Shown here piece after piece: positions 716 through 58,453 of a stretch of DNA of 64,000 nucleotides. Below the pieces are notes generated by a model, which worked only from the letters and a program-made list of their open reading frames with translations, searched no databases and was not told where the DNA came from. The position numbers and the translations under genes were made by a program. Numbering within the stretch: position 1 is the stretch's first letter; every line of letters begins with the position of its first letter. This DNA comes from Gracilaria domingensis (taxonomy: Eukaryota; Rhodophyta; Florideophyceae; Gracilariales; Gracilariaceae). The stretch covers positions 62,001-126,000 of the forward strand of contig VCMS01000081.1 in the NCBI GenBank assembly GCA_022539475.1. Direction: 5' to 3'.

Positions 716-3412
716 CTACCGTACCAAGTCCGTGCTTGCACTACGAGCCGAACGGGGCGTTTTCATTTCGATACCCGTCACCAAATCCACATCCTCCAGC
801 AATTTACCCACCTTGGCGCCATCAACTGCAATATCTTCCCGTTCCTCTAATGTGTACCGCTGCTGCAATACTGACAAAAGCTCAGTGGCCGCTTCTGCCA
901 CGTTGGCGCGGATCGGTCGCAGTAACACTGCACGAGATGCTGGCTTTGTGATGTAAATCTTCATTCTCTCAATGACCGGTCCCAATTCTTCATTCACAGC
1001 TTTTTCAACCTTCTCCCATGTTTCTTTCACCTTGGTAGGATGCGCGAATGACTCTGGATTCGACTTCTGCGTATCGAAAGGTGCGGATGGTGGTGTGGGT
1101 GGAACCTCGCCTTCTTCAAGCACTCTATGCGCGGTTCGACTTGCAGGCAGTGCATTGCATTTCGCAAGAAACATTAGAACAGGGTCCAGAATCAACCGCG
1201 TAGTCTTCAGAATGAATGACTCACAGGCCCCTCGTACGCGGTGGTCCAGCTCACGTTTCGAGTCGAACACTTTTTCTCGCACCGCGGGTGGAGACGCTAG
1301 CGATCTAGCAGATAGTTCCCCACGAATGACTGAGCCAAGCAACGTTCGCAGTTCAAAGAAATCAAGTTCGTGCTCAGTGTAGCTCATGTCCACATCAAAC
1401 GGGGAAATTTGCTCCCTTGTCATAAGCAGTTGCCAGATTAGAAACAGTTGCGCATGGTCTTCGGCGTTTGGTTTGTCTTGCGCAGTAATGCGCGCGGCGG
1501 CAGCACCTACGCTTTGAACACATATCGCGACTGCTTCCTGGGCCACTCCTGCAAACACCTCTCCATCCACGCATCGGTACAACATGGAGAGAAGTCTTAG
1601 TGTCTTCTCCACCGGTGGGTACCAAGTAGCATATATTCCAACGCTACGGATGTCAGGCAAGAACGCATCCTTCTCTTGAGACCCAGACTCTGCTCCATTC
1701 TCCATATCACCTGCGTCCATTGACTTTTGCAGGGATGTGACAATGGAAGCAGTCGATGAAGATGCTCGTTTGTTATATTCCAGAATGATTTCAGGGTAGT
1801 GTAGATGGTGAGGGTTGGGAACGAATCCTCGGATTTCATCGCGCATGTATACCTCGGCGCGATAAATGATACGCTCTTGTGCGTCTGCAATGGCACGAAC
1901 AGCAGATGGAGCAAATGCCTTTCCGGCAAACCCGCGACGTGGAACTTCATCACCCAGAATCTCTGTCTTCAAAACCTCAATGAGGTAAACCAGGTTATCA
2001 AGGTCATCTTCTTGTAGTATGAGTGGCCTCAGCTCTGTATACACGACATCGCACACAACACGAAGCGCCGCATTCAAGATAGGCGTCTCATTTTCCTCCT
2101 CGCTGTCAAGCGGAAAGAAATGTTCATATAGCTGGCGCTCCAATTGGCAAACTCGCAAAACATACGCTGACGCTAGTCTTGCCAGAGCGATCATGTTCTT
2201 CACATCAGCTAAAGATTTAACGTGGGCGGCAACGGATGAGTCAAGCAAACGCTTCCGTTGTTCAAAAAAGCTTTCTTCGCAGTCTGCATAGAGCCCAAGA
2301 GCTGTGTTCCGTGATGAAAACATAGAATTCGCGCTAAACCCAGTCATCCCACTAGATGACGGATTCGAGTACGCGTCTGTTGTGGAAGACGGTCTTCTGG
2401 AATAACGGGGAGACAAGTTGAGCTCGCTATGCCGCATAGACGTGCCTGCGCGAGGGCTCGAAGGAGCCGCCTTTGCCCTGGAATGAAGTTCCGTCATCAG
2501 CGACTTTATACGAGGGGCGATAGTTCGAAATCGCAAGTATTCTTTCGAAGCATCGGTAAGATCAGCATGCCTAAATCCAGCCCCATTAAGACGATCCTCT
2601 CGAAGCTCCTTCGCAACTTGTGTCGTAGTATCTCGGAACACCGTTACCGTATGGTCTCGAATGGAAGTAAACGCACGTCTCTGCAACTCGAGAAAGCGGG
2701 CCAGGTACCCATCTGCTTCTGCCACCGCTCCAGTAGAACTGGACGCATAAGCAACGCACTCGTCTAGACGATGAAGCAATTTGACAAAGTCAGGATCTGT
2801 TGGTTTGATTGAGTTCTTCCCTCCACCAAATTTCGCCGTCAAGGTCTCGAGTTCCTCAAAGTAGGTGAGTCGCTTTCGAAGGGCGTCCGCAAGTTCACCC
2901 AATGTTTTCCTTTCAGACACCATTGCCTCACAATCTGACTTGAATTGAAGAACCACATCCGATACAAACTTGTGACCGCCTTCAACCTTTACGAGGGCAG
3001 CTAAGGCATCATCCACCGTTTCTATAAGCCTGAGACAGTCCTTTCGGTCCTCTTTCAGACCGTCTACAAGTGATCGATACTTGTGTTCATTGGCTTCCTC
3101 CAGTCTTCGCTCCATCTCGTCGTGCCAAATGTGGAATTCTTCCGCTGTGCTCACTTCTGCCAAACCCTTCAAACCATCCTCTCCCTTGTATGAAAACATC
3201 GCATTATCGCCATCATTCTGCTTTGAATCAGCACCCTCATCAGTCGTCGTTACAGGAACTTTTGAAACCGGAGCAAAGGTTGAGCATTGTGATTCGACAA
3301 GAGCGCAGAGCTGCAGTTGGTCTTGAGTCAGAGGGGCATTACTTTCCCATAAACGCAGGAATTCACCATGACTCTTCGCTCGAGAGGACGCTTCCATTGC
3401 CTTAGAAGCCAT
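716..3412 (-). CDS. COG3: Conserved oligomeric Golgi complex subunit 3
   Basis: Subunit of the COG tethering complex that guides retrograde vesicles in the Golgi. The 898-residue product has a coiled-coil N-terminal half, then the Sec34-type core: FEELETLTAKF, FVKLLHRLDECVAYASS and YADCEESFFEQRKRLL correspond to the conserved COG3 blocks. Length is near the family norm of about 800-850. I chose the ATG at 3412 (MASKAMEASS). The frame stays open 16 codons further upstream without an ATG and is then closed by TAG, which sits at a possible 3' splice site, so a short upstream coding exon cannot be excluded. A Ser/Pro-rich insert near residues 315-360 is low-complexity. It is divergent from HGH1 and convergent with the NDUFB4-like gene. 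Confidence 0.85.
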   Translation of the reverse strand: MASKAMEASSRAKSHGEFLRLWESNAPLTQDQLQLCALVESQCSTFAPVSKVPVTTTDEGADSKQNDGDNAMFSYKGEDGLKGLAEVSTAEEFHIWHDEMERRLEEANEHKYRSLVDGLKEDRKDCLRLIETVDDALAALVKVEGGHKFVSDVVLQFKSDCEAMVSERKTLGELADALRKRLTYFEELETLTAKFGGGKNSIKPTDPDFVKLLHRLDECVAYASSSTGAVAEADGYLARFLELQRRAFTSIRDHTVTVFRDTTTQVAKELREDRLNGAGFRHADLTDASKEYLRFRTIAPRIKSLMTELHSRAKAAPSSPRAGTSMRHSELNLSPRYSRRPSSTTDAYSNPSSSGMTGFSANSMFSSRNTALGLYADCEESFFEQRKRLLDSSVAAHVKSLADVKNMIALARLASAYVLRVCQLERQLYEHFFPLDSEEENETPILNAALRVVCDVVYTELRPLILQEDDLDNLVYLIEVLKTEILGDEVPRRGFAGKAFAPSAVRAIADAQERIIYRAEVYMRDEIRGFVPNPHHLHYPEIILEYNKRASSSTASIVTSLQKSMDAGDMENGAESGSQEKDAFLPDIRSVGIYATWYPPVEKTLRLLSMLYRCVDGEVFAGVAQEAVAICVQSVGAAAARITAQDKPNAEDHAQLFLIWQLLMTREQISPFDVDMSYTEHELDFFELRTLLGSVIRGELSARSLASPPAVREKVFDSKRELDHRVRGACESFILKTTRLILDPVLMFLAKCNALPASRTAHRVLEEGEVPPTPPSAPFDTQKSNPESFAHPTKVKETWEKVEKAVNEELGPVIERMKIYITKPASRAVLLRPIRANVAEAATELLSVLQQRYTLEEREDIAVDGAKVGKLLEDVDLVTGIEMKTPRSARSASTDLVR

Positions 3413-4232
3413 AGAAAAAGGCTCAGTCTCGATTGGGCAAGTGATATTGTCGAAACTCAAAAGCTGAACCTACTCCAGGAATAAATTCAATTTTGTATTA
3501 GTCGATCTGTTCCCAATCAATGCCTTGTCAAGATCCTCATTCTGGTTCTGAGAAGCTATGCAACCATACCGAAGCTCTTAACTCTGTCTAACAAAGCTGA
3601 ACTGGTAACTTGATTGTCGATGCAATGATGCAAACCAATAAAGAACAAGAGTGGAGTTGTGGACAGGCACTGCGTCTAGTGCACAGGCACTACGTCTAGT
3701 AGACAGAAAAGGAATAATTTTGTTGAATCTAGCTAGAGAGAACGGCTTCATGTGGGCGTGAACGCGCTCGCTGCCAGCGTAGAGCAGTGTAAGGCCAACC
3801 CAGCTCGCTGGGCTGCCATCTACAGAGTGACATTTGGGTCGCTACAGAAAACATGTCATGTTGGAAGTCATGTTGTCTGAAGCGGTGACGTCGACGGTTA
3901 GTTCGTTCGTTCCGGTCAGGCCTGATCTTCAGAAATCGGCGTCAACGACAACGCGTCGTCAACGCTTGTTAAGACAGGGCCTGATCAGGTGTTTCTATCT
4001 ATCGTTCAGAAAGTTACCAAAGGTAGCCTTATACTTCGTTCCCGGTGCAGAGCATTCCAGACTGTATTGTATTTTGAGTCGCAACACGGTTTCTTGAACA
4101 AGTTTTGTATAGAACTGAAAGTTTTGAAAGTCTATTGTTTAACGGTATTCCTTGAAGAGCTGTGGATATCAACCTCAAACGCTTTGGTTGTTCAAGATAC
4201 AACACTCGCGTGGGCGACCAGCGGACTTAGAA
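3413..4232. promoter_or_regulatory. Divergent intergenic region COG3/HGH1 with an 18-bp tandem duplication
   Basis: There is no coding signal. It must hold both promoters. Positions 3663-3680 and 3683-3700 are two copies of ACAGGCACTRCGTCTAGT differing at one base. No TATA box is obvious for either gene. Confidence 0.4.
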
Positions 4233-10866: not shown

Positions 10867-11932
10867 TCACACCGTCACCTTCGTCTGGTCCGACATCTCC
10901 GTGCCGTTGAACACTGCGTCCGCCTGCCCCGCCCACGCGTCCAGCATCGCCGCCACGCCCACCGACGCCGCCGGCGAGATGGACAGCACCCTCTTGAACC
11001 GCTTGCGCACCTCCTCCGCCAGCCCCACCCACCCCATCGGCGGCCGCTCAAACCCATACGTCGCGCCGCCCTTGCGCGGGTACCCGCGCTGCACGCGCAG
11101 CATCAGCTTCGGCAGCCGCATCTCCGCAATCTTCAGCATGCACACCACCACCGGGTGCCCAAACTCCTCCACGATCCACACCTTGAGCAGCCGGTTGCGC
11201 TCCTTGGCCGCCTTCACGTCCAGCTTCACCGCCTCGCGCAGCAGCTGCATGTCGCCCGCCTCGTGCCGCGGCTTCTTCGCCAGCCGCAGCCCGCTTTCCG
11301 GCGAGCACTCAAACACCGTCTTCGTCTCGATCACCCCGTCGCCGCCTTCCACGTTCTCCACGTCTGCCAGCGACCCCTTGCGCTTCTTGCCCTTCTTCTG
11401 CGCCTCGTCCGACGCCGACGCGCTCGCGCTGTTGCGCAGCGCCGCCAACGTGATCTGAATCCGCTCGCTCTTCTGCCGTTTCGCCTCCGTGTCCCACGAC
11501 TGCTCCAGGAAGTTCACCTGCGCGCTCACGTCCTTCACCATCGCGATGATATGCGCCATCTTGCCCGGCGCGTCCATCTCTGTCCGGTTCGCACTCTGCG
11601 TCTTGGCGTTCAGCAACGCGTTCTGCTGCGCCGCAGCCGCCGCCGCCGCCTGCGTCCCCGCGTTCATCACAGCGCCCGAATTTCCTGCACTCGCCGCAGT
11701 CGTCGCCGCCGCACCACTGTTCGCAACTCGCGTGTCGTTGCTACCTGCGCGACGCCCGTTGCCGCCCACGCCCAGCGTCGTATTTGTGCCCTGTGATCCC
11801 GCGCCCCAACTTTCCAGCTGCTTGGCGCCCTTGTGCGCCCCGCCGCCGCTTTCCGCCCGCGAACGCACACTGCCCTGACCCGAACGCAAGCTAGCCGCCG
11901 CCGCCTGCTGCTGCCGCTGCTGCTGTTGTTGC

Positions 11933-12013
<81 letters not shown>

Positions 12014-14637
12014 TGCTGTTGCATCCTCGCCGCAACATGCTGCGCCTGCAGTTGATGCAGATGCTGTTGCTGGTTAGTCTGCACCTGCGCCAGCGCTTGC
12101 GCCTGTGCTTGAGTCGGTGCCACTGCCGCCGGATGCGCCGCAGCCTGAACCACTTGCGCCTGGTTCTTCACGTGCGCCTCACCCTGACCACCAGCTCGAC
12201 CCATCTGCATATGTTCCACCAGTTTCGCCATCTGCTGCTGCGACGCCGCCGTACTGCCTCCTACTCCAGCAACACCCTGCACTCTTCCCGCGCCCCTCTG
12301 CAACGCCTGTCGCGCGCGTGCGTTCGCCATCCTGGAAGCCACCGCCTGTGCGTGAGCCTGTCTCCCGGCCGCCAGCTTCGACACATCCACCCCAGCAGTA
12401 CCCGCCGCCACGCCGCCGCGAGCCTGTCGCGATTGCACACCTGACTGCATCTGATGAGCGGTCGCCTGTATGTTAAGTTCATTCAACAGCTTGATCCTTT
12501 GCTGATTTTGATAATGGTAGCTATGCTGCTGTTGCTGAAGACCCAACTGTTGCTGTGCCCGTGCCTGTTGTTGCGCCTTTTGTTGCGCCGTCTGTGGCTG
12601 TGCTTGTGCAGCTGGCTGCGCTTGCGCCAATTGCCCGGCGTCAAGTCGTTGCATGCCAGCGTGAGTTGAACCACCCACCTTCCCTCGGGCAGCCTGCATT
12701 GAAAGCGCACCCTGAGCGGTAGACGCTTGTCCAACCGCCTTGCCTGCCACAGCCGCCGTGGCAGCCGCAACTGCTGCCGCATTGGACTCCAGTCCTTCCC
12801 TCATGTTCGGGCCGCGTTTCGCATGATTCACGTTATAAACTTGCATAAGCCCGTTTAGAAAGCTTTCAGCGCGCTGCAGTACGCCAAAGTCAAATCTTTC
12901 CGGTTTCTGAGTTCCTCGCTTCAGCCTCAAAACTGTGATACAATCTTGAAGGAACTTGAAGAACTGCTCCTTCGACGGCGAGTCCTTATGGTGGATCTTT
13001 CGGATGATGGGAACTAAATGGTTAAGAGGTGCCATGTACTTCCTTTGAATCTCTTCAAGTTTGTTCCAGAACAACTCGTTCTGCGCGTCAGCAGAAAGTT
13101 GCTGCTTGCCCCCTGTGGCGACCGCTTCCGAAGCATTAGGTGCCATAGATCCCATAGCAACATTACTCGGCACCATCCCCGCGTTGGCACCAGCCAGAGC
13201 TCGCACCGTCTGTGCCTGACTCGCATTTTGGATCGCCTGCGCCATGGCTTGCTGCTTGTCCCGCGGGATGGCAGTTGCCTTCTCTTGTTTGATTTTCTGA
13301 CTCGCCAAGATAGCGTTCAGCTGAGCAGGCGTCATGCCTGCGGTTCTCTTCGCTTGGGCACCAAGTTGGGCGTTGCCATGGGCAGCAGCGTTTTGCTGTT
13401 GTTGCTGCTGTTCTTGTTGCTGCGCTAATTGTTCGCGAACCCTTTGAGCTTGCTTTTGCCTCTCAAGAGCCAGTGCGCGGTTAACGGTATTCGCATTCAT
13501 AAGACCCTGACCAGCAGCCGCTGGCTTGTTTCCCATCCATTTAGCCGCGTTAATACTATCAATCGCCGCATTATTCATGTTTATCTGCGCCTGAGCCTCA
13601 TTCATACGCGCAAAGTTCTGTTGCGGCATGGCTACTGCAACGTTGCTTCTCACCGGCCCTTGCGATTTCAAAAGAGTAAGGAATCGCGCCAATTGCTCCC
13701 GGTTGCAGTGACTGAGCTGCTCAGCGGTTACGTTCATCCCTATGGCGTTTGCCGCGTGAGCGATGAGAGCATACTGAGAAACCGGCAGCGCATTCCCGCG
13801 AGCATTCATCATCATAGGATTCTGGCCTTGAACGTTCGCACCATGGTGGAGTGCTTGCGACACGCGGTTAGCGGCATGGGCGCCCACAGACGATGAAAGA
13901 GCCTGCGATGCTTGCTGCTGGACAATAGACATGTCGGGAGTAACACCAGCCGGGGGGAATTGTTGGGCCTGTGATACCTGTTGGCTAGTCACAGGTTGGT
14001 GCGCAGCGCTTTGTAAGGCGGCGGAGACTTGTGCCTGCGACGCTATCGGGATCTGGGCTGCTTGATGCTGTGCGGCAAGTGCCCTCAGATACTCCTGTCG
14101 GGCACTGGGTGGCAAATTGGCGAGAGTGGCCTGCGGGTTGGCGAACATTGCCTGATTGGCGTTCATTTGAAAGGCGCGGCGAAAAGCATCGACATCCGTT
14201 GGGGCGTTCGGCAGTTGACCCTTTGCACGACTCACGGCCGGAGCAGACACGGGCGGCGGGGCGGCGGTCGTCTTCGCGGCGGAAGCATTAGGTTTCTTCT
14301 ACGATTTCGCACAATCACATGGAAAACGGCACAATGCTGTGTTAGATCAAGGAAACAGAATGATGAACAGAATAAAAGACACAGACGATGAGCGATACAT
14401 ACCTTTCCTTCGGCACCAGGCGGAGAGCGTTTAGTAGCTGAGTTAGACTTTCTCGCAGTTTCTTGCGCTTTGTTTTGCGCGTTAGGTTGTTGGACACCAG
14501 GCGCATTCTGCTGAGTCTGTTGTTGTTGCGCCTGGCGTTGTTGCGCCTGCTGCGGTTGCTGCGCCTGCGGTGGCGGCTGCTGCTGCTGCTGCTGCTGCGG
14601 ATGTTGCGGCTGCTGCTGCTGCTGCTGCTGTTGTTGT

Positions 14638-14690
<53 letters not shown>

Positions 14691-15306
14691 TTGCTGCTGT
14701 TGGCGTTGCTGCATTAATAATTGTTGCTGCAGCATCTGATGATGCTGTTGCGCCATCATTTGTTGACGTTGCAGATGTTGATTCTGCAGTTGTTGACGAA
14801 GAGCGGCCTGAGCCTGTACGGTAGGCACGGTCTGCATACCCGCCACGCCTTGCACGCCTTGCACACCCTGCACGGCGGGCACGGGTTGAACGCCCTGCGC
14901 GGCGGCGGCAGCGGCGGCGGCGGCAGCGACGGCTGTGCCTTGTTGGGCGGCGCCCATTTGTTGATTGCGGGCGCGCTGCGACTGTTCGATGCGGCTGAGG
15001 CCCTCGGCGATCTTCTCAAGGTAGTCCTGACGACTGACGGCGTTCTGAAAAACGCCCATCTCGAAGCGGCGCGTTTGGACCTTGAGACTTGCGTGATCGA
15101 ACGTGGACTGACAAGCTTCTGCGGGGCGTGGAGACAAACAGTTAGTACGAGTGGAACGAGAAGGCGGTTTTGCTGGAGGCAGCTCCACGTGACTACGAAC
15201 GGGAGGGCGGCGACGTACCAACTAGCTTGTCGAGGATATGTTGACAGACCTTGATACGGTCGTCGTTTGTCATCTCGAGTTTCCAGCTTCCCTGCTGTGG
15301 CTCCAT
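10867..15306 (-). CDS. MED15: Mediator tail subunit 15 with KIX domain and polyglutamine tracts, three exons
   Basis: Mediator tail subunit that binds transcriptional activators through its KIX domain. Exons: 15219-15306, 14403-15118 and 10867-14298. The introns (100 and 104 bp) begin GTACGT and GTATGT and end GCAG and GTAG, and phases agree. The product is about 1411 residues. The N-terminal KIX domain runs MEPQQGSWKLEMTNDDRIKV, then DKLVEACQSTFDHASLKV and FEMGVFQNAVSRQDYLEKIA, spanning the first splice junction, which supports the model. Two polyQ regions follow, one at 14578-14730 and one at 11907-12020; the second contains 19 uninterrupted CAG codons. The C-terminus (about 11050-11300) is more ordered and Lys/Arg-rich, as in MED15. 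Codon use turns much more GC-rich toward the 3' end. KIX plus Q-rich architecture could also fit another KIX coactivator, but there is no HAT or bromodomain. Confidence 0.8.
11907..12020 (-). repeat. CAG/CTG microsatellite coding polyglutamine in MED15
   Basis: A CTG-rich tract on the plus strand, interrupted by TTG codons at both edges. Positions 11953-12009 are 19 perfect CTG units (CAG on the coding strand). It encodes one polyGln run of about 30-40 residues. Confidence 0.95.
14578..14712 (-). repeat. Second polyglutamine microsatellite in MED15
   Basis: Mixed CTG/TTG repeat on the plus strand (CAG/CAA coding). It is more interrupted than the 11.9-kb tract, so probably more stable. Confidence 0.9.
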
Positions 15307-16538: not shown

Positions 16539-19114
16539 TCACAGTTCCACGCGCGAGTCGGTCGTCATCATGATCATGCGCGCGAGCGAGTACAACATTC
16601 TCAGCGGAGCAAGCAGACTGTGCGCCACATTCGGCACAATCGTATGTGTATACGTGGAACAAACAACACCATCAACCACAATATCTCCATCAATCGTCTG
16701 CGGGTTGTACAAACCCTTCCCCTTCACCATTCGAACGTCCACAACAACTTCCTCCGTCCCAGATTCAACCCACACCCGGTCTCCACGTCGTGCAGAGCCC
16801 GCCATCCTCAAGTGGCCGTCCAGATAAATGAAGTGCCCCCGAGTTAGCTTCATAGTCTTCCCGCCCGACGTCGTCACCTGCACAAACCGGTATGGAACGT
16901 GCGCGGAACGGTGAGTGAACATGAACACGTCCGAGTACTGTTTGTGCCCGACCAGTACAGAGTCCCCTATCTCGAGCTCATCCATGCGTTTCGTCCAGCC
17001 GTCTGCGAGCTGCACCGTCGCCGATGCCGGGAAGCACACATCGTCATCGTCACCGTCATCGTCATCGTCATCAGCAGTTTGTTCAACGCTCTCCTCACCC
17101 TCGCCTTCTTCGTCTGTGTCGGACGTGGTCGCCCCCGGTGGCGAAGGCGCCAATGTTGCAGTCGGTGTCTCGGGCGCAAGCGGTTCTGGAGCTGGGCAAG
17201 TCCCCAGCGCGTTGCCAAAATCGGTCGGCGCTCCTATCTCGTCTTCGAACGCAGGGTTCGGTTCCAAGATGATGGCCCCTTCCGTAATATTTCCCATATC
17301 GCCACAGTACGTTCCTGTCAAATTCTGTTCCGGATTGTTGAACCATGCGCAGATGTTGATCTTTTCATTCGTCACTGGGTCTCGTTGAACCGGCCAGTAT
17401 CCCGCAAATTCCATGCACATTTCGTTCTTTGTTTCCAGACCGAACGTTGTGTTCGGGCGCTTCCTTGTGTCGTACAGACATGTCACCTGCATCTGATCCC
17501 CGGGGCGGATCTGCTTCGGAGGGTCGAACACGATGTAGTTTTGAAAGCTATCGCTCCAAAAGTTGACCTGAGTTGCAAAAGAGGCCAAAGCACAGAAGTT
17601 GTGTTAGAGTCAATGTGCATTGTTCAATGATGGTAGATATTTGACGGCTTTGATGCTTACCTTATTCATGTTCTCGATAAAGGTGCCATTTTCGCTGAAC
17701 TTGTTGTTGTATATTTCCATCCCAGTTGTGTGCATGTGCAAGAAGCTCGCAAAGTAATTGATTGGCCTACTGAACTTATTTGTGCAAGCAGACGTACAAG
17801 AGTGTTCATATTCAAACCCATTCTCCACGGGCTGGTCAAAGCGATTAATGAAAATGTCACCCATGAGAAGCGATCCCGCCTCATACTGTCTCATGGTGTT
17901 CGTGTAATACACTCGCACTCCACTGGAGTCGAACGTGTTCGGTCGTAGGTCAGGATTGTCATAGTGTGTTTCCAATATAAGGATGTAGTTCTCGTCATCC
18001 ATAAGAATACCGGCCTCCTCTGGCAGCACCAGTCTCTTCATCCCCTTCACGTCTAAAATGTCAGAGTCACAACCAAGAAGAAGACGAATGGTATCATATG
18101 TTAGCAGTTGTACCACCAGGGCCGAGGACATATGTGATAATACTTACATGCATATATGAAGGTAGCACACTGAGCGAAGTTGCTACCTTGAGGACCTGGG
18201 ATCTCGCTACCTCCTGTAGAGCATTCTACCGTGGATCGCGTGAGCTCTGCGTATTCCTCGCTTCTACAAAGCCAAAAGGTTAAGTGGTGAACCATGGCAT
18301 CATCAGTGGCATTCAAGATCGGTTCTGCTGCGACAATCATGCGCTGCTCTCCAGGACTCAATCTGATGACCTTGCTCGTGCATGCATACGTAGTAACTTT
18401 GTCGCTTGGAACTGTCCATCCAGTCGCGGTCACATCTATGCTCCCATCGACATCCTCTGGCAATGGCTTTTCGTCCATTCCAGCATCAGGTGTGCCATCC
18501 TCTTCGTAGAGAATTACTCTGGTAGAGCTCCTTCGCGATCCGTGATATGCGAACGCAGACCCGTAGGCATAAATGACACTGTTGGGCCCTGGAGGAATCT
18601 CCCTGTCTTGAGCATCATGCGCATCCAATGAGCGCGAAACCTCCAAGATCAACTGCCCATCTTCAGTGCTTCGCATGCAAGAAATCAACGTCCAACTGTC
18701 ATCGTTTTGGCAATCATCTGGAAGCGGAAAGGCAGATGGGGCATCGGCAATTGATTTAATGAGCGGGAAGGCGTAAAAGGGGACATAGCGATCAGTTAAT
18801 TCACACTCTATTGTCTGCCCACTGGAAAACTCTGCGGTAACCACATCTGCACCAAGCATTGAGCCACTCGTGGGTTCAGATATACCAAAACCAATCCAAT
18901 TTGACGAATTAGAAACGATCTCAGTGTCATTGACGACAACTGCAAAGGATGCCGTTGAGCTTTCCAGATCTACGGTGTAGAAAAGTTCAGCATCTTCGCT
19001 AAGGGAAATAGGCCCGAATTCATAATCTTGAGAGAGTTTAAGGGCGTTCGCCCTGTTATCGGCATACAGCAGCGAAAAGATAAGGAAACCGGAAAGAAAC
19101 AAGTGAACGATCAT
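16539..19114 (-). CDS. Secreted DOMON / copper type II monooxygenase / Hedgehog-type Hog fusion, three exons
   Basis: Exons: 18148-19114, 17661-18052 and 16539-17567. The introns (95 and 93 bp) begin GTAAGT and GTAAGC and end TTTTAG and CTCAG, with matching phases. The 795-residue product has a signal peptide (about 1-24) and a DOMON-like domain (about 30-200, NWIGFGISE). A dopamine beta-hydroxylase-type monooxygenase spans about 215-545. All six copper ligands are present: His276-His277 (VHHLTF) and His352 (THYDNPD) for the first copper; His428, His430 (LHMHT) and Met503 (TKNEMCMEF) for the second. A Thr/Pro linker and an Asp-rich run lead to a C-terminal Hog domain: Cys631 in VCFPASATV, Thr695-x2-His698 in LTRGHFIY, and VAHSLLAPLRML, which matches the post-Hint Hedgehog segment. 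Predicted: secretion, then self-cleavage at Cys631 with attachment of a nucleophile to the enzyme. No metazoan Hedge domain is present. Confidence 0.85.
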
Positions 19115-28727: not shown

Positions 28728-29636
28728 TTGGGCTTAACAGCGCGGGTGAACGGTTTATGATCGGTGCGCGCAGCGCGGGGCCAGCGGGCGGGAGGGCGGG
28801 CGGCGGGCGATGGGCGATGGGCGATGGGCGGGGGACAAGGAAGCTGCGAGCGAGGGCGCGACGAGACGCTGGTGCAAGATGCGGAAGGCGCTTGAAGCAG
28901 AGGTGGAGTGGGGGGGGGGGGCTCACGGGGCGGAAGGACGACGCGTCAGGGGGCGCGCGGGGGGCGGAAGCGGCAGCGACCAAGACGGCGAAGTGGATAA
29001 ATACGTTGCCCCAAAGCGCGCCATTTTTTCTTCGCGCGATTAGATCCCGTGCGCCGCGCCACGTGTGCAGCTGTGCGCGTGGCCACGCGACGGCACCGGC
29101 ACCGGCGCGCGGCGGCGGCGGCGGCGCGCGCGCGCGTGACGCGCTGCGCGCGTGACACGACGCGCGCTGAATTGGCGGCACGCGTGCGACGCGGAGGTGC
29201 ACGCTGGCGCGCGCGGCGCGCGCGGCGCGCGCAGCGCGCGCATCGTGGCGCGCGCGCATCGCGGCGCGGACGAACAAACAGACACTTCGCGGGGCGCGCC
29301 TCGCGCGCAGACGAGAGCGCGTGAAACGGTCGGCGCGCGAAGCCGCGCGCTGTAAAGCGCCGGCTGGCGCCGCCCGTTACGCGCGCGGCGCGCCGCCGTA
29401 CGTGGGCGCCGCGCCGCCGCCGCGGCACGCTTGCGCGTGGCGTGCTATAAAAGCGCATGTTCACCGCCAGCTGACGGCTCTTGCGCGCTGTGAGCTGCGG
29501 TTGGTGACGCTGTGTTCTTGCTTGTCCCCCCTCGCCTCTTTCGCCCCGCCCTCGTCCGTCCCCCACTTCGCCTCCGCCTGCTTTTGCTCGCTCTTTGAGG
29601 CTTGCGCTGAGCTTTGCTTGTTGACGTTTGGTCGGT
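28728..29636. promoter_or_regulatory. CpG-rich divergent promoter H2A.Z / FAS1-Hog
   Basis: CG-dense sequence between divergent genes, with a run of 12 G at 28910-28921 and short tandem GGGCGAT repeats at 28806-28828. A clear TATA box for the plus-strand gene is listed separately. Confidence 0.5.
29446..29453 (+). promoter_or_regulatory. TATA box of the FAS1-Hog gene
   Basis: TATAAAAG within CGTGCTATAAAAGCGC, about 185 bp before the ATG at 29637. It is the only strong TATA box seen at a CpG-rich promoter here. The distance implies a 5' UTR of roughly 150 bases. Confidence 0.6.
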
Positions 29637-31049
29637 ATGAAGCGCTTCTTGTTGCTGCTGGCCTTTTTCTTGGCCGTCACGCTGGTGCGCGCCCAGGAAG
29701 GCGAGGAAGAGCCCGACGTCGGTGCGTTGCCGGACTCTGCTGCCGACGGTGTCTCAAACGCCGTCGTCCCGAATCCGAGGCCCACACTGTTTGGTCTACT
29801 TGCTGAATCTGAAAATCACAAGATCCTCTTCGCCATTGTCAACTCCAACGCGGAGATCAAGGATGCCTTGGACGATCCGGGCGCAAGGTTCACCGTCTTC
29901 CCACCTGTCGATCAGGCCTTCATCCGCCTGACCCGGAGCCTCAGCCCCGGCGTTGACTTTGATGAGCAAGATCCGGAGGAGGTTATTGCCACCCTCTTAG
30001 CCGCTCTCGAGAATATCCGAGAGGTGCCCAACTTTCCTGGCGTGGTTGGCCTTGTGTGGTATCACGTGCTTAATGGCGCGTTCACGTACGGCATGCTGGA
30101 GAACTTTGGCACCTTCAAGACCGGCCTTGGTCCCAACCTGACCTTTGCCGACGGCTTCATCATTGACGGCGACGACACTAGAGACAACGCCAGGGCCAGC
30201 CCCAGAAATATCTTCACTCTTAACGGCTGGGCAAACCCCGTCTTCAACGTCCTTTTGCCGTTCAATCTTCGCGCAGCCCAGGATATTGTCGCCGCCCTTC
30301 CCACCCCGACTCCTGCCGTGACCCCGGAAGTCACGCCCACGCCCATCGTCGCCCCGACTGCCACACCAGTTGCCGTACCTGAAGACGACGACGGCGACAG
30401 TACCGTCACGGGTCCCGCCATTATCGATGACGGTGATGGGGAGGCGACGGTTACGGAAATGGATGACATCGAACCGACGCCCACGGACGAGGATGACGAC
30501 GAAGTGTGCTTCCCGGCCTCTGCGACTGTTACTACCATGGAGGGAGAGTCCGTCCGAATGGCTGATCTTCAACCTGGTGAACATGTACATCACGACGAAC
30601 ACGGTGCTTCTTCTCGCGTGTTCTTCTTCACACATCGTACCTCCAAGCCCGAACTGTGGTTCTACCGCATTTCCACTGCGTCTGGCCACGCCGTCACCAT
30701 GACTGGCAAGCATTACTTGTATGCCAATGGACGTCTCACCGCTGCGCACGCCGTTAAGATCGGTCACCTGCTCCGCACCAAGGCTGGAGAGAGCGCGGTC
30801 ACTTCTGTGCAGCGTGTGAAGGATACTGGACTTTTCGCTCCGCACTCCATGCACGGAGATCTTCTGGTTGATGGCATCGTGGTCAGCAGCTATTCGCGGA
30901 CTGTGGAGCCGCGCTTGGCACATGCTCTTCTCATGCCTCTACGCTGGCTTGCTCGTGCAACTGGATCCAAGGAAGTTCTTCCTGGCGTGTTCTATGAAGG
31001 TGGCCGAGGGTTGGAGAGGTTTGTGCCAAAGGGCTTGGCAGAGTATTAG
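29637..31049 (+). CDS. Secreted fasciclin (FAS1) / Hedgehog-type Hog fusion protein
   Basis: The 470-residue product begins with a signal peptide (MKRFLLLLAFFLAVTLVRAQ). A FAS1 domain follows at about 48-212: ARFTVFPPVDQAF matches the H1 motif and LVWYHVLNG the YHVL motif. FAS1 domains mediate adhesion at cell surfaces and walls. A Thr/Pro linker (TPTPAVTPEVTPTP) and an acidic stretch ending DEDDDEV lead to the Hog domain: Cys291 in VCFPASATV, a GEHV turn, Thr356-x2-His359 in TMTGKHYLY, and LAHALLMPLRWL at the Hedgehog post-Hint position. A 35-residue tail follows. The last residue before the catalytic Cys is Val, as in the monooxygenase fusion, where animals have Gly. Predicted: secretion followed by self-cleavage that releases the FAS1 part carrying a new C-terminal group. 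Single exon. Confidence 0.88.
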   Translation: MKRFLLLLAFFLAVTLVRAQEGEEEPDVGALPDSAADGVSNAVVPNPRPTLFGLLAESENHKILFAIVNSNAEIKDALDDPGARFTVFPPVDQAFIRLTRSLSPGVDFDEQDPEEVIATLLAALENIREVPNFPGVVGLVWYHVLNGAFTYGMLENFGTFKTGLGPNLTFADGFIIDGDDTRDNARASPRNIFTLNGWANPVFNVLLPFNLRAAQDIVAALPTPTPAVTPEVTPTPIVAPTATPVAVPEDDDGDSTVTGPAIIDDGDGEATVTEMDDIEPTPTDEDDDEVCFPASATVTTMEGESVRMADLQPGEHVHHDEHGASSRVFFFTHRTSKPELWFYRISTASGHAVTMTGKHYLYANGRLTAAHAVKIGHLLRTKAGESAVTSVQRVKDTGLFAPHSMHGDLLVDGIVVSSYSRTVEPRLAHALLMPLRWLARATGSKEVLPGVFYEGGRGLERFVPKGLAEY

Positions 31050-33297: not shown

Positions 33298-33726
33298 ATG
33301 GCCGCCAGAAACGAGACCGCGCGCCTGTACAGAAGCTTCCTGACTCTTAGGTACCGCTTTCCGAACAAGCAGGCGCGCTCGGTCATGCGTCGATGGACCA
33401 CTTTGTTCTTCACGATGCGACAGGTCGAGTACGAGCAGATCGTCGCGCAGCAGGGAAAACAGGCGGCGGATCTGCAAGCGCAGCAATGGCGGGCTGAAGC
33501 TCATGAGGATCTTGGTAAGCCTTTCGCTTTCCCCATCCGTTTACAAAATTATTGCAGAGAGATCTTGCTTCTACTTGTCACTTACACCCCCTAACCATCC
33601 TGCGCGCTTGCTCCCATTTCAGAGATGTGGAAAGCCTTGGCCGAACAAGATGAGGATTCGAGAAGACAGTTGACGCGCGCAATTCTGCAAGACGGCTCTC
33701 CACCGCACACGCTCAACTCAGCCTAG
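33298..33726 (+). CDS. LYR-motif (Complex1_LYR-like) small mitochondrial protein, two exons
   Basis: LYR proteins serve as mitochondrial assembly factors or complex I accessory subunits and bind acyl-carrier protein. Exons 33298-33514 and 33623-33726; the 108-bp intron begins GTAAGC and ends TTTCAG, and phases match. The 106-residue product begins MAARNETARLYRSFLTLRYR, with Leu10-Tyr11-Arg12 as the LYR tripeptide in the usual first helix, followed by a basic second helix. Exon 2 encodes EMWKALAEQDEDSRRQLTRA. I cannot name the orthologue. Its last 14 bases overlap the 3' end of the opposite-strand carrier gene. Confidence 0.7.
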
Positions 33727-34672
33727 GGTTCTTGCCGTTCTCTCTGGAATGCTTGACAATCATGGGTGTCAACACTTTCTTCGCCGCTTCATACGCTCCA
33801 AAGAACACGGCGCCACCAATAGAAATCCACATCACTCTGGGCACCACTCCGGCCATCAGCGCTCCAGCACCTTCTTCCCTTGCAATCGTACTAATTCCAT
33901 GTACAATGCCATTGTATTTTGGAGCCGCCACATTCTGCGTCATCAGGCGCGTTTTCACAACGTCCAACGGAGTCGTCAACGCTGCTGAGATCGCGCCGGC
34001 CACTGAACCACACACAGAAGTCTCCCAGGTCTCCAGCGTTTGTCCCCTCTTCCGCTTCTTTGCCATCGTTTTAAGATACTCGTATAACGGGAACTGGATC
34101 GCGTCAAACGGTAGCTCGCGAATGACTAAGCTGCCATAGCCAGTGTAAAAGCCTGCAAGTCCTTCTTTTGCAATCGTGCCACGGATCGCAGCTCCAGCGC
34201 CCGCATATAACCCCGATTGTACACGTTGTTTGACAACTTCGAACGGCGCTCTAACAGTAGAGCCCGCAACATCGCCCGCGGCAGCCGCAACCATGTGACA
34301 GAGCGGTGCGTAATACGGCTTTTTGTCGCCGACAAATTGTTCCAAAACATGCTTTACATAGTCATACACTCCGAAAAACGCCGCTGCTGCGGGCGCAGAC
34401 GCTACCACAGCAGGTCCGAAGCCTGCGTATAACCCAGTTAGTAGTGCTGCTGGGGACTTGGGAGCTACGCTGGAAGACAGTTGCAAGCGCGTTTTCAACG
34501 TGTCTAGAGGGAATAGAACCGCATCCACCGTGAAGCCCGCTACAGCACCGGCGCCGAGAGCGATTCGAAACGTTTCCGTCGGTGTGATTGTTTGAGAGCT
34601 TTCTGTTGTGGAATTGGCGATCAAAAGCTGACGAGACCGTCTGGGACAAAGTGGGGGCGGAGACACAACCAT
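33713..34672 (-). CDS. SAMC: S-adenosylmethionine carrier of the mitochondrial carrier family
   Basis: Six-helix inner-membrane (mitochondrial or plastid) carrier. The 319-residue product shows the three family repeats with signature motifs FPLDTLKTR, APFEVVKQR and TPLDVVKTR. SAMC-specific resemblance lies in GLYAGFGPAVVASAPAAAAF, FYTGYGSLVIRELPFDAIQF and VPRVMWISIGGAVFFGAYE. The N-terminal 40 residues are Ser/Arg/Pro-rich and could be a targeting extension. The ATG at 34672 is upstream of the first helix. Single exon. Its tail overlaps the LYR gene by 14 bp on the other strand. Confidence 0.85.
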   Translation of the reverse strand: MVVSPPPLCPRRSRQLLIANSTTESSQTITPTETFRIALGAGAVAGFTVDAVLFPLDTLKTRLQLSSSVAPKSPAALLTGLYAGFGPAVVASAPAAAAFFGVYDYVKHVLEQFVGDKKPYYAPLCHMVAAAAGDVAGSTVRAPFEVVKQRVQSGLYAGAGAAIRGTIAKEGLAGFYTGYGSLVIRELPFDAIQFPLYEYLKTMAKKRKRGQTLETWETSVCGSVAGAISAALTTPLDVVKTRLMTQNVAAPKYNGIVHGISTIAREEGAGALMAGVVPRVMWISIGGAVFFGAYEAAKKVLTPMIVKHSRENGKNPRLS

Positions 34673-35356
34673 TCTGGACTGTGCACTTGAATCGAGATCG
34701 GCGTCTCAAGGTGAAGATGAAGATGTTGGCGTAGCTCTCGCTTGTTGGGGAGATGCTGCGCATTGCAATCTCATCGACGCTGGGATCATCGCGTGTGGCC
34801 AGCGGCTGTCATTTCGGTGACAACTGTCAGCACATGTTGACAAACGCGTCGACACGAATAAAAACTCCAACTAAACAAAACGTGCAACCGGCGAATCGCG
34901 CCGTGATTGGAGATATATCTGCACAACCTACGTCGCATCCTCGACTTCTTTCGATGCGCACGCGCTCCACGAACGCTATCGTCCCTGTTGTGTCTACGTC
35001 CAAACACGACAGTTCGCGAGTCTTCCACCACTGCTTGAATCGCGCAAACCGGGCCACATAGGCCCATTCTGCACCGCCTTGGGAGCAACTCGCCGACTGA
35101 ACGAACCTACTTTCGAAAAGGTCAAACAGTTTATGGTGCCGCCGTACCGCATCTCCTCTAGCGTTGTCGAACTTACCTATATTACAACCTTCTACTGCTC
35201 CCTCGCTACCTGCAGCTGCCGCACCCACGGCGTACAGGGAACATCGTCACTGGTCGTCAGTGGTAGTGGCTTAATTGTGCCAAAGTACACATCATCTGTT
35301 GAATCACATTTCCGAGGGCAAGACCCCTTGGCGCTGTGAACTTTTTCGCCTGGATT
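34673..35356. promoter_or_regulatory. Divergent intergenic region SAMC / TPM-RING gene
   Basis: 684 bp with short random frames only; nothing specific was recognised. Confidence 0.4.
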
Positions 35357-40692: not shown

Positions 40693-41115
40693 GTTGGAAA
40701 GCTTTTGTTAAGCACTTTTACCCGATGCGATGCGCGAGAAGGACGATGTGGCCGTCGTGGTAGCGTACAATCGCTGCGTGCTGAAGAAGGGTGGGCGGCG
40801 TTGGGGATCGGGACGAGCGGGATACAGTCCGTTCTTGGAGACGACATGCGCCGACGACGTCTTCCGTGTGCCGTCGGGCAATGCCAAACTTTATTGGTGA
40901 CTTTTGGAATTATTTTCACATTTCTGAGCGCAATTGGCGGAAGGAAGACAGCGGCGACAAGGAAGCACCTCCAGCAACGCTTTCGCATCTCTAGCGATGG
41001 GCACCCGATAGGGTAGATATCGCCCGCGTCTGCAACAAGTTATGCGCCAGCGGCCGTCTCCATCGCCTCCCGCCCCCGTCCCCCTCAGCGCTGCCGGCTG
41101 CCAGCACCTCCTGAT
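40693..41115. promoter_or_regulatory. Divergent intergenic region RPS13 / SPP-like protease
   Basis: 423 bp carrying both promoters; no TATA box or repeat was seen. Confidence 0.4.
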
Positions 41116-42255
41116 ATGGCGTCCGAGCTGCTCTACCTCCTCACCGACCGCACTGCGCTATGCATGGTAGTCACTGCCACGCTCACTGCGGCTTACGCGT
41201 CCTATCGAGCCAATGCGCCGCTCTTCAAGAGGGGCTCGTCGCGTACGCAGTCGTTGGCGCCATCAATTTCTGAGCAGTTTATTGATGAGAACAGACGCAT
41301 TTTGGAAGGTTCTACAGCGGTTGCGTTTCCTATCATCGCCACGATATCCATTGTGTTCCTCTTCTTTTTCATCAAGTCCTTTGGGTACATACTTACTCTT
41401 CTTTCCACCGTATCCAGCGTTTTTTCAGTCGCTTTCTTCTTGTGGCCTTTTGCTGAGCTCATTGCTGCTCGTATTCGCGCTCTTGCAGTTCAACACCGCT
41501 CGAATAACGCCATCGAGTTTATGATTGTTGTACCCATTGCGCTGACTGTAATTGTAGTTTGGTTGTTCACAGGCAGCTGGATGCCAAACAATGTCATTGG
41601 CGTTAGCTTGTGTGTTTTGTTTGCCTCTCTCTGCAAAGTTCCGAACCTTAAAGTCACCGTCATGCTTTTTGCGGGCCTGTTCGTATACGACATTTTCTTC
41701 GTTTTCTTCTCGGAAAGATTCTTCGGACGAAACGTTATGGTGGAGGTTGCCACCTCCGCCCCTAAGAACCCTGTGTCAGCACTTGCGTCCTTCCTTAATT
41801 TGCCGTTTACCCCAGTGAAGAACTTGGCCTTACCAGCCAAACTTGTGTTTCCCGCTGGAGGGAAGGATTTTGCTATTCTTGGGCTTGGAGATATCATTCT
41901 ACCGGAGGTTCTTCTCACATATCTTTTGGAAGTGGACCTGCTGCGAACTGCTCAAAGGGCATCATGGTACAATGGTTACTTCACGAGGGCTCTAGTAGCC
42001 TATATTATGGCTTTGTACACCAGCTTTTACTGCAATTTTGTCTTTCAGAACGCACAACCCGCACTGTTGTATATAGTTCCTGCTCTCCTGTTGACTACTT
42101 TGGTACATGCAAGAAGCAAGGGAGAAATTGATGCATTGTGGACAGGTACAGCAATCCGACATCCTCAGGGAGAAATTGGGGCGAGCATGACTCTTGAAAC
42201 CAATTCTACAACAACAGACCCAAAAGATCTTGAGACAACTGCGCTTGTGACGTGA
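41116..42255 (+). CDS. SPPL: Signal peptide peptidase-like intramembrane aspartyl protease
   Basis: Presenilin-type protease that cleaves type II membrane segments in the ER, Golgi or endosomes. The 379-residue product has about nine hydrophobic helices. The three catalytic signatures are intact: YD at 191-192 (LFVYDIFFVFF), GxGD at 256-259 (ILGLGDIILPEV) and PAL at 315-317 (NAQPALLYIVP). There is no N-terminal signal peptide with a PA domain, so it resembles SPP or SPPL3 rather than SPPL2. Short polar C-terminal tail without a KKXX motif. Single exon, ATG at 41116. Confidence 0.9.
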   Translation: MASELLYLLTDRTALCMVVTATLTAAYASYRANAPLFKRGSSRTQSLAPSISEQFIDENRRILEGSTAVAFPIIATISIVFLFFFIKSFGYILTLLSTVSSVFSVAFFLWPFAELIAARIRALAVQHRSNNAIEFMIVVPIALTVIVVWLFTGSWMPNNVIGVSLCVLFASLCKVPNLKVTVMLFAGLFVYDIFFVFFSERFFGRNVMVEVATSAPKNPVSALASFLNLPFTPVKNLALPAKLVFPAGGKDFAILGLGDIILPEVLLTYLLEVDLLRTAQRASWYNGYFTRALVAYIMALYTSFYCNFVFQNAQPALLYIVPALLLTTLVHARSKGEIDALWTGTAIRHPQGEIGASMTLETNSTTTDPKDLETTALVT

Positions 42256-42612: not shown

Positions 42613-44901
42613 TTATTGACTCGACACTGCTAATTTCTTGAGGTGATCTGTGAAGACCTGAAGACTGACATCGTCTGTGAAGATAAAATCTGAGCCTCCG
42701 TACTCTGCAGCAGCACTGTGATGGTTGACAGAGGGGTTCAACTTGGCGAGCAGAAAACGAGCTTGTGATCCCTTCTGGTCACATTCAATGTATCGGGCGT
42801 ATGGGAAACGCTCGTCGAGAACAGCTGCAGCATCGTCCTTTGGTGCTTGAAGCAGCAACTTAAAGTTAGTGTGCTTTCCGTCTTCATGGTATCCAGCTTT
42901 TCGCCAAGCACGAACAGTTTCTCCGGAAAAGACAATTACATAGAAGAACGTATCCAGTAGTAGAATTCGATCGGGCTTGATCGAGGTAACGTCCAGCAGA
43001 ACTGGCTCTGGGGGACCCGACAAGGAATAACTCATAAGAGTGGGCTGAATCATAAGTAGACAGTTGTTGACATTTTCCCGATTCAGGTATGAACGATACA
43101 ACGCAGTCTCATCGGGCGTTGAATTGAAGACTTGAAGGAACTGTGACCGTCTCAGATTGAACATGAACTGCGGGTATAGACTGAAATTTGCGCTGAGAGC
43201 AAACGAGTCAGGACTGTCTCTGTCATACTGCGCAAATCTCGCGCACAAGCGAATTAGCATTCTGTCAACCCATCGCAGAATGTCGAACGAGTCCTCGTTC
43301 TCTGTCTTATACACTGCCATTCTCGCCATCAGTACAGCAGCTGCATCTTGGTCGAATCCAGCAGCAACTGCCTCAATGTTTTCGCCTGAGGTCCAGCGCC
43401 CTGCGGTTGTGGTGACCCGCATCCGATGCTGGCCAGAAGCGTGGATATAACGTGTGACAAACTGAACAAATCTGTACTGGTCGTCGCGAATAGGGTTCGA
43501 ATGTGGGTTCACAACTTCGAAGTACGCAGCAATCGTGGTGTTCGTATCTAGTGTGCACATACGCCATGAAGTTGTGCCACCAATACCGATCTCCATATCA
43601 GTCGAAACAGAAGGCCCGTCTTTGTTCAAAGACGCCACAGGGCCAATGACTCCAGCAATCTTGATCTCGCGCGACGTAATAATGTCCAGAGAAGACTGGA
43701 ACCCCATTGTGAGCTGATTGGTCTCATCGGTCGCAAAGAACTTCTCAAAGGAATTCTTGAACATGGGATGCTCAAACGATTCTGAAATGACCAACACCCC
43801 TCCAGTACGATCAACGCAAGACTTCATCTCATAACTTCCCACTTGGTCCAGAGAACAACTCCATACATCAATCGCATGACCCGCATTAACGGCCCTGGTG
43901 GCAATATCGTCAAAGGCTTTGAGCGCCGAGCTATGGAACGGAGCATTATCCTTTTCCATATCAGAGTGAGATCGAACGGTGTCGCCAAGCTCCAGCGCAA
44001 CAATCTTGCCCGGATCCACGGTACCAGGCCCACCAACAAGCAGCTCAACCCTGGCGCCGTTTCCAGCATACGTGCACTCCAGAATTCCAACCGCGACGGA
44101 AAGCGCAGTGCACGTAGCTCTCTTTGGTCGCTGCGACGCCGGGACTGGCCAGGGATCGGTATCCAATTCTTCTAGAATGGAAGTCATCATGAACTCACCC
44201 TCGCTGGCTGGTTGCAAGAAGCGAGCGGCGCCAACCATGGCTGGGTTGACGCCGGGCGCGCCGTTCATAGCCGCGCCTCTCGCCATGCCGGATGGCAGCG
44301 CCAGCAGCTCTCTTATTTGGTCGGTGGTGTACTCCTTCTCGCCTCGCAGCACGTAGCACTTTGCGCAGTCTGTGTAGCCGATGACGTGCACGTGCACGTT
44401 TTGTCCGAATGTAATGAGGCCGACCATTGCGTCCTGCGGAAGCAAGGACAGCGCCTTGATGATGTAGTCTTTTGCGGTTTGCAGCTCGTCGTCGCGCGTG
44501 CAGGTATCAAGCACGAAGAGAAAGGCGGGCGGTGCGGCGGGCTGTCTCGGCAACGAGTACTCGACGGTGGTGAAATCCGGCACGAGTTCATACGGCAGGT
44601 TTTGCTCCGAGATGGACGAGTAGTTGGGCGGCAGTCCATTGCGATGGTGACAAAACACGCAGAACCACATGCGCGTGCGCAGATCGACGCGGCAGTAGGG
44701 ATTGAGCACGGCGGTGCACGCCTTGCATTGCACCGGATCGTACGGAAGCGGCTGCGGGAGACGGTTGGGGGCAAGGCGCTTGAGCGGGGTGTACATGCAG
44801 GCAAACGGAACGATGCAGCGTGTGGCCTCCAGCCGCGACGACGGCCAGGTCATCCATGACCAGCGACAGCCGTCCATTTCCTCGAGCTCGGCAAAGTCCA
44901 T
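42613..44901 (-). CDS. SEC23: COPII coat GTPase-activating subunit SEC23
   Basis: Inner COPII coat protein and GAP for Sar1 at ER exit sites. The 762-residue length equals the family norm. The N-terminus [20 protein letters not shown] is the Sec23 opening. The zinc finger has Cys59, Cys62, Cys81 and Cys84 ([16 protein letters not shown]). The trunk shows [11 protein letters not shown] and [20 protein letters not shown]; later [20 protein letters not shown] and the beta/helical/gelsolin regions ([37 protein letters not shown]) end at [15 protein letters not shown]. The start is the ATG at 44901. The frame continues 255 codons upstream but has no Sec23 character. Codon use is GC-rich in the 5' third and drops after about 44200. 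Confidence 0.95.
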
Positions 44902-58016: not shown

Positions 58017-58453
58017 GCTTAATAGCAGGCCTGCTCACTAGGTTCTGCAGACTGCAATGTACTTCAGCGCAACGGGTATAGAGACGAGTTTTTCTGTTCA
58101 GCCCAACTGTGTTCCTCTGAACTGAAATGGTCTCTCTTCGAAATGCAACATGTCGAGGACTAACTCTTATCGAGGATTCGCTCGAGAGAGGACGATGAAG
58201 GAAGACAGGCCATTTCCAAAGCGGCGCGCTAGAGGGGCCTGTCTTAATATTAAGTTTTAAATTAAAAGTATGGAACCATGCTACATTTTGGAAATCTTCT
58301 CAGGAGCGCGAAAAAGAACTCGTTCGCTCTCATGTCTCTATTGGACTTAAAAGCATCGACAACTCGCCCACTCCGTCCTCTCCCAAGCACACAGAAGCTC
58401 TCGAGGAGTTGCCCTAATTATCTACCGCTCTGCAGCTTCTAGTTAAAAACAAC
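58017..58453. promoter_or_regulatory. CSTF2 upstream region
   Basis: 437 bp; no repeat was recognised. No TATA box. Confidence 0.35.

Follow-up and report, generated by a model that had tools for sequence, protein, structure and literature searches.

We report that the red alga Gracilaria domingensis (Gracilariaceae) encodes a secreted copper monooxygenase fused to a Hedgehog-type Hog autoprocessing domain. That enzyme and Hog are parts of one protein is nearly certain. For the role of the Hog our best reading is tentative, standing a little short of an even chance: by homology, it would be a self-cleaving C-terminal anchor that adds a lipid, probably a sterol, to the enzyme. Within this reading we infer the cleavage, the adduct, the identity of the adduct, and the location of the product.

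Gene and domain structure

The gene lies on the minus strand of the 64,000-nt stretch of DNA that we analysed as a whole (hereafter the window), with its start at 19114 and its stop at 16539; in our splice model, three exons separated by two GT-AG introns yield a product of 795 aa (Table 1). The model is supported because two homologues cross the junctions without a gap: P0001 (GEZJ01000482.1, a complete ORF according to its source) over both, and P0003, a Trinity product, over the second, the sole junction within its coverage. From its accession, we take GEZJ01000482.1 to be a transcriptome record. The public G. domingensis model (P0077, “Copper type 2 ascorbate-dependent monooxygenase”) comprises 432 aa without a Hog; it is the same as our product to residue 377 (48% of the query identical) and then differs through another reading. 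Its stop short of the Hog would suit an artefact in which a wrong splice model had run two adjacent genes together, enzyme and Hog being separate proteins. Against this, copper ligand M503 and the Hog share one unbroken reading frame, and at least 14 database proteins carry both parts (P0001-P0009, P0011-P0013, P0073, and P0078), among them the complete ORF and the Trinity product; these homologues rule out the wrong joining of two genes, to which we leave a negligible probability. P0077 serves rather as an example of a public gene model from which the Hog exon has been lost. An initial annotation of this DNA had proposed the fusion of a DOMON/DBH-like copper monooxygenase to a Hog, and the gene was found with every residue named there (H276, H277, H352, H428, H430, M503, C631, T695, and H698).

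Table 1. Exons, introns, domains, and key residues of the fusion gene, in window positions
Feature	Positions	Strand	Basis
Exon 1: signal peptide, DOMON, first part of copper monooxygenase (H276, H277)	18148..19114	-	splice model; common to public model P0077
Intron 1, 95 nt, GTAAGT...TTTTAG	18053..18147	-	splice model; P0001 ungapped over junction
Exon 2: copper ligands H352, H428, H430	17661..18052	-	splice model; P0001 alignment
Intron 2, 93 nt, GTAAGC...AACTCAG	17568..17660	-	splice model; P0001 and P0003 ungapped over junction
Exon 3 with stop: copper ligand M503, linker, Hog domain	16539..17567	-	splice model; Pfam
Signal peptide, residues 1-24 (end approximate)	19043..19114	-	most hydrophobic 19-mer begins at residue 1
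DOMON, residues 44-185	18560..18985	-	Pfam PF03351 1.1e-8
Copper type II monooxygenase N-terminal domain (Cu2_monooxygen), residues 227-358, split by intron 1	17946..18436	-	Pfam PF01082 3.4e-19
Copper type II monooxygenase C-terminal domain (Cu2_monoox_C), residues 379-519, split by intron 2	17370..17885	-	Pfam PF03712 1.1e-22
Linker, Thr/Pro then Asp/Glu-rich, residues 577-630; D or E at 20/54	17037..17198	-	composition
Hint/Hog domain, residues 631-795	16542..17036	-	Pfam PF01079 1.3e-30 (630-789); PDB 6td6, 6tyy, 1at0
Cys631, catalytic Cys1 of Hint fold; expected cleavage Val630/Cys631	17034..17036	-	Cys in 77/77 Hogs
His672, site of general base Asp303 of Drosophila Hedgehog	16911..16913	-	PDB alignment; His in 77/77 Hogs
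Thr695-x-x-His698 (TxxH motif)	16833..16844	-	T/S and H in 77/77
VAHSLLAPLRMLYSLA, counterpart of first sterol-recognition helix; second helix absent	16581..16628	-	alignments; helix roles as in the cited parts of PMC7242414

All four Pfam domains exceed their curated cut-offs, Hint/Hog with 107.1 bits vs 29.7. In a PDB sequence search, the enzyme core retrieves dopamine beta-hydroxylase (4zel, 3.1e-30), and the Hog retrieves Drosophila Hedgehog (6td6 at 1.2e-12, then 6tyy and 1at0). With both copper domains and a ligand set of three His, then two His plus a Met, the enzyme is a predicted copper type II ascorbate-dependent monooxygenase; H352, H428, H430, and M503 are kept in 13 of 13 alignment rows, and H276 and H277 in all 10 rows that cover them. 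The domain matches and ligands bear out the annotated secreted DOMON plus DBH-like monooxygenase with six copper ligands, the Thr/Pro and Asp-rich linker was likewise found, and the proposed check against Hint/Hog profiles returned PF01079 above its cut-off. The signal peptide call rests on the hydrophobicity of the N-terminal 19-mer; past residue 30, a hydropathy scan of the whole protein gave no 19-mer above 1.6.

Three other identities for the gene product were rejected. A chance Hint match is excluded by the E-value of 1.3e-30. An intein ends in His-Asn, with Cys, Ser, or Thr and a C-extein coming next; this protein has no C-extein, ending 19 residues past Arg776. A Hedgehog signalling ligand would need an N-terminal Hedge domain, and a DOMON and copper monooxygenase stand there instead.

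The Pfam-named neighbours in the window are ordinary housekeeping genes: COG3 (719-3469, minus strand), a mitochondrial carrier (33716-34705, minus), signal peptide peptidase (41017-42252, plus), a Sec23/Sec24-type protein (42616-45702, minus), a CstF subunit 2-like protein (58418-59530, plus), and ORC3 (59769-61790, minus). Long glutamine-rich reading frames occupy 10870-15221 on the minus strand. Rfam and tRNA scans of the 64,000-nt window were empty.

Conservation of the fusion

Our first database search gave 49 proteins, 12 of them with both enzyme and Hog (P0001-P0009 and P0011-P0013); P0073 and P0078 came from later searches, and the one that yielded P0077 and P0078 scored 8000 candidates. 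P0001 aligns to the 795-aa protein with 72% identity over 98% coverage. By part, this identity is 84% in the enzyme, 65% in the Hog, and 24% in the linker, so that the linker is poorly conserved and the Hog conserved.

A branch with support 100/99 in the enzyme-part tree separates the 14 Hog-bearing proteins, the window protein, and P0010 from 25 Hog-less relatives (25 of the 35 rows P0015-P0049); P0010 ends just past the enzyme and is uninformative on the Hog. Those Hog-less relatives that bear names come from a tunicate, a fish, a wasp, a brown alga, a diatom, a green alga, and an amoeba; there is no red alga among those named. Short DOMON/copper matches (246-434 aa) were left out of the Hog-less count, since some of them look like exon 1 truncated at the first intron; P0100 and P0012 lie on contigs of equal length, and so do P0112 and P0078. 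The G. domingensis genome showed no further copies of the monooxygenase among the matches listed: PF01082 has one match, and both matches of PF03712 lie in the window gene.

Hog domains elsewhere in the genome

Profile searches of the 77.9-Mb assembly (680 contigs) with the Pfam Hint model found 44 places, 42 of them above cut-off. Besides the window's own Hog there are 37 complete Hogs, each readable in one frame, and a few further copies that are partial or broken; one of the 37 (L029) lies whole inside another (L030) and two are near-identical (L045 and L046), both pairs being counted in the 37 and in the set of 77 described below. The near-identical copies are on contigs C126 and C238, with partial or broken copies on C114 (L049) and C164 (L050), as if recently duplicated. 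Two further weak and partial Hint matches are on C121 and C380, and the Hog on C40 (L044) is split across two reading frames by an intron or a break.

A Pfam scan for partner domains covered 36 of the 37 frames (all save L029), with L031-L050 represented by only ~1.3 kb of upstream sequence, where partners may be missed. Partners exceeded cut-offs in 6 of the 36: fasciclin in L020, L021, and L025, trypsin in L026, kelch in L015, and temptin in L033. L045 has weak pentapeptide repeats, and the other 29 frames gave Hint-type matches only. Kelch-Hog and pentapeptide-Hog proteins also occur in the database, as does one Hog protein named as from the red alga Purpureofilum. By eye, eight loci (L012, L016, L018, L019, L022, L024, L030, and L031) seemingly share a secreted domain upstream of the Hog, with conserved Cys and no Pfam name. 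The window itself holds a second Hog gene (29625-31046, plus strand), in which a complete Hog comes after a fasciclin domain.

A tree of the Hog part, from which we left out L030 (all of L029 lies within it) and L046 (identical to L045 at 491 of 500 residues), is poorly resolved. The Hogs of the monooxygenases are scattered in it, requiring 8 changes, and a single clade of them is not rejected (p 0.248). Since the enzyme tree places the same proteins on one side of a branch, vs this scatter, later swaps of Hogs are possible. In the same tree, the Hog of the second window gene clusters (99/88) with the Hogs of two further fasciclin-Hog genes.

A catalytic centre with a predicted His base

We compared 77 Hogs, namely the 37 of the genome, 39 from the database, and the window's own. 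They were gathered with a profile made from the monooxygenase Hogs and lean to close kin, and the non-algal comparison consists of PDB chains only. Cys1 and the His of the TxxH motif are invariant in all 77, and the Thr position holds Thr or Ser. At the position of Asp303, which is Asp in Drosophila Hedgehog and in Sonic Hedgehog (7e2i) by alignment, every one of the 77 has His. The general base of the Hedgehog type is thus replaced by His672 in the window protein. P0075, at 31% identity, keeps the catalytic residues too.

The cited sections of PMC9163320 describe Asp303 as the general base and an engineered D303H Drosophila Hedgehog that keeps fold and activity, and whose sterol tolerance is widened to a sterol on which the wild type is inactive. 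With His in 77 of 77, the Hogs compared thus carry this swap naturally; we found no statement of a natural His base in Hogs in open-licence papers.

These alignments make the predicted fitness of the catalytic centre for autoprocessing well supported, and self-cleavage at Cys631 is likely. Were the Hog instead inactive here, it would stay uncleaved at the C-terminus and act as a module in, say, sorting, as might be argued from the Thr that replaces the Cys of motif J in the window Hog and from the broken or partial Hog copies in the genome. An idle Hint fold should, however, lose Cys1 in some proteins, so its invariance in 77 of 77, with catalytic residues retained even in P0075, counts against inactivity, which we judge very improbable. 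Changes of the motif J Cys to Ser, Thr, or Asp are recorded for red algae and moss (Burglin 2008, PMC2362128, in the part cited).

The Hog in the place of an anchor-type segment

A simple hydropathy cut-off calls a hydrophobic tail or membrane-type segment after the enzyme core in 29 of the 35 Hog-less relatives P0015-P0049 (a first count on 25 rows found 22). In 18 this is a hydrophobic tail at most 6 residues from the C-terminus, as in GPI signals, and in 11 a transmembrane-like segment; in 3 of the latter, 262-398 residues follow, and 2 of these 3 carry an AMP-ligase-type domain. Five relatives lack a segment and one is cut short. By hydropathy, none of the 15 Hog-bearing proteins has an anchor-type segment between core and Hog; the same cut-off is passed inside the Hog by 5 of the 15. 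Because 29 of 35 relatives have such a segment after the core, the Hog occupies the place of an anchor-type segment. Of the tethering to a membrane or wall polymer that had been suggested, this favours the membrane, and the wall polymer fares less well.

No GPI-pathway family among the six searched in the genome (Gpi16, PIGA, GPI2, PIG-M, Gaa1, and PigN) exceeded its cut-off, in a search that had no eukaryote positive control; GPI2 gave three weak sub-cut-off matches with internal stops, and the Gaa1 and PigN profiles had no match anywhere in that search. Two controls were found by the same search, STT3 (5e-90) and squalene/oxidosqualene cyclase (2e-46). The DOMON profile missed the window gene's own DOMON in this type of search, so weak or split domains can escape it and the GPI absence is soft. 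The one other place that the DOMON profile listed is C25:381752-382087 (minus strand), an open frame of 734 aa. Red algae have reportedly lost GPI biosynthesis, as Qiu and colleagues are said to have described in 2015. Red seaweeds have cholesterol as their main sterol according to the cited part of PMC5104453, and according to that of PMC3113362 cholesterol has been isolated from Gracilaria salicornia.

In our preferred reading, the protein is a secreted MOXD1-type copper monooxygenase in which a self-cleaving, Hedgehog-type Hog would have taken over from the membrane anchor. In the secretory pathway, Cys631 would attack the carbonyl of Val630 to form a thioester; His672, in the place of Asp303, would then activate a nucleophilic hydroxyl, for which the 3-OH of a membrane sterol is the likeliest candidate. 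The enzyme (mature residues ~25-630) would be released with a lipid ester on its new C-terminus and would stay at the outer membrane face, spaced from it by the acidic linker, and the Hog part would be discarded after cleavage.

The nucleophile might instead be a hydroxyl of agar, another matrix polysaccharide, or a glycolipid, in which case the Hog would ligate the enzyme to the wall as a covalent wall protein. The wall of Gracilaria is agar-rich, and other Hog proteins of the genome have fasciclin (three) and temptin (one) domains. A His base also tolerates more acceptor geometries than Asp does, in the results cited from PMC9163320. Ligation to the wall nonetheless seems improbable to us: a Pfam scan of the whole protein found no carbohydrate-binding domain, the first helix is similar to the one by which Hedgehog seeks the membrane, and most relatives have a membrane-type segment.

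The missing second helix

The sterol-recognition region of human Sonic Hedgehog is a helix-loop-helix, and neither helix could be lost in cells without stopping the product (PMC7242414, in the part cited); the first helix also steers the protein to the Golgi (cited parts of PMC7242414 and PMC9163320). By sequence, the window Hog has the motif of the first helix and not the second, so the initial description of a complete Hog holds for Cys631, Thr695, and His698 but stops short for this region. The first motif is well kept in the genome's own Hogs, with Ala768 in 36 of 37 and Pro774 in 35 of 37. What follows Arg776 is short, with 8-39 residues across the 15 monooxygenase Hogs.

A further element of the tail, built around a G-A/G/S motif, appears by a loose pattern in 18/37 of the genome's own Hogs and 20/25 others, vs 1/15 monooxygenase Hogs, and by a strict pattern in 8/37, 13/25, and 0/15, respectively, both patterns having been drawn by eye, post hoc, once the tails had been seen. 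Tails of L011, L012, L016, L042, P0058, P0060, and others read hydrophobic, D/E, x, G, A/G/S ... P, x, G about 20 residues past the first helix of the sterol-recognition region. This recurring element is perhaps the counterpart of the second helix in those other Hogs.

The missing second helix is the strongest evidence against a sterol adduct, and it leaves hydrolysis or another acceptor open. The main rival to our reading builds on it: the Hog would be a self-removing pro-domain, having served folding, transport, or inhibition, and water or a small thiol would resolve the thioester to give a soluble enzyme with a free C-terminus. The short and unconserved tails of the monooxygenase Hogs fit this account, and non-splicing Hint domains are said, in the cited part of PMC7242414, to undergo thioester hydrolysis or ligation. 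A soluble product would, however, mean the loss of a location that the anchor-type segment provides in 29 of 35 relatives; moreover, all 77 Hogs have the His that is His672 here, a possible base for a nucleophile, and conservation of the first helix motif is high. We therefore regard the pro-domain as rather unlikely, and continue with the anchor as the best reading.

Relation to known systems

The window Hog resembles the animal Hedgehog autoprocessing domain (1at0, 6td6, and 6tyy) in its Hint sequence, Cys1, TxxH motif, and first sterol-recognition helix motif, and in its place C-terminal to a secreted domain. It differs in having His for Asp303, Thr for Cys400, and no second helix, and the N-terminal part of the protein is an enzyme, not a signalling domain. 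The Hogs of red algae and protists (PMC2362128; Cyanidioschyzon merolae, PMC5405695) are of the same type and also show the motif J Cys change. Hog genes of red algae, Gracilaria included, have been in print since 2008, with six fragments from Gracilaria changii (Burglin 2008, PMC2362128, in the part cited). In the parts cited here, PMC2362128 and PMC5405695 do not mention a monooxygenase and a Hog domain together, nor do they give an anchor role.

With MOXD1/DBH-like monooxygenases that have a DOMON, the enzyme shares the DOMON, both copper domains, and the six copper ligands; after the core, those relatives mostly have the hydrophobic tail or transmembrane-like segment noted above, whereas the window group has a Hog. 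If the anchor reading is right, there is a likeness to GPI anchoring, in which a C-terminal signal is also removed and a lipid put in its place. The proposed Hog route would nevertheless be autocatalytic, with no transamidase and another adduct, and is not a member of the GPI system.

The initial annotation knew of no described enzyme-Hog case. This stands in so far as we found none in open-licence full texts, among the matches listed; it needs qualifying in that at least 14 database proteins carry the fusion and red algal Hogs were printed in 2008. In open-licence papers, again among the matches listed, we found neither the copper enzyme partner, nor the constant His base, nor a link to missing GPI.

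Significance

The Hog may be this seaweed's means of fastening proteins to membranes. A broader conjecture, which we hold to be doubtful, is that Hog autoprocessing serves this red alga, in which no GPI pathway was detectable, and perhaps red algae as a whole, as a general route by which secreted proteins acquire a sterol or related lipid at their C-termini without the help of an enzyme. If such a general system were true, the copper monooxygenase would be one of some three dozen G. domingensis clients, beside trypsin-, fasciclin-, kelch-, and temptin-type proteins; the client Hogs would naturally hold the His base that has been engineered into Hedgehog; and Hedgehog with its cholesterol would be a single animal example of an ancient way of anchoring proteins.

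Protist and algal Hogs have been on record since 2008, and the parts of that literature cited here assign them no function; the fusion to a copper enzyme offers a lead. It rests on a known enzyme class, relatives that mostly have membrane-type tails, a GPI pathway that was not found in our search, and cholesterol-rich algae. The role of non-animal Hogs is now testable in one protein. Covalent sterol attachment might turn out to reach beyond Hedgehog, and natural D303H-type Hogs would become available for protein bioconjugation.
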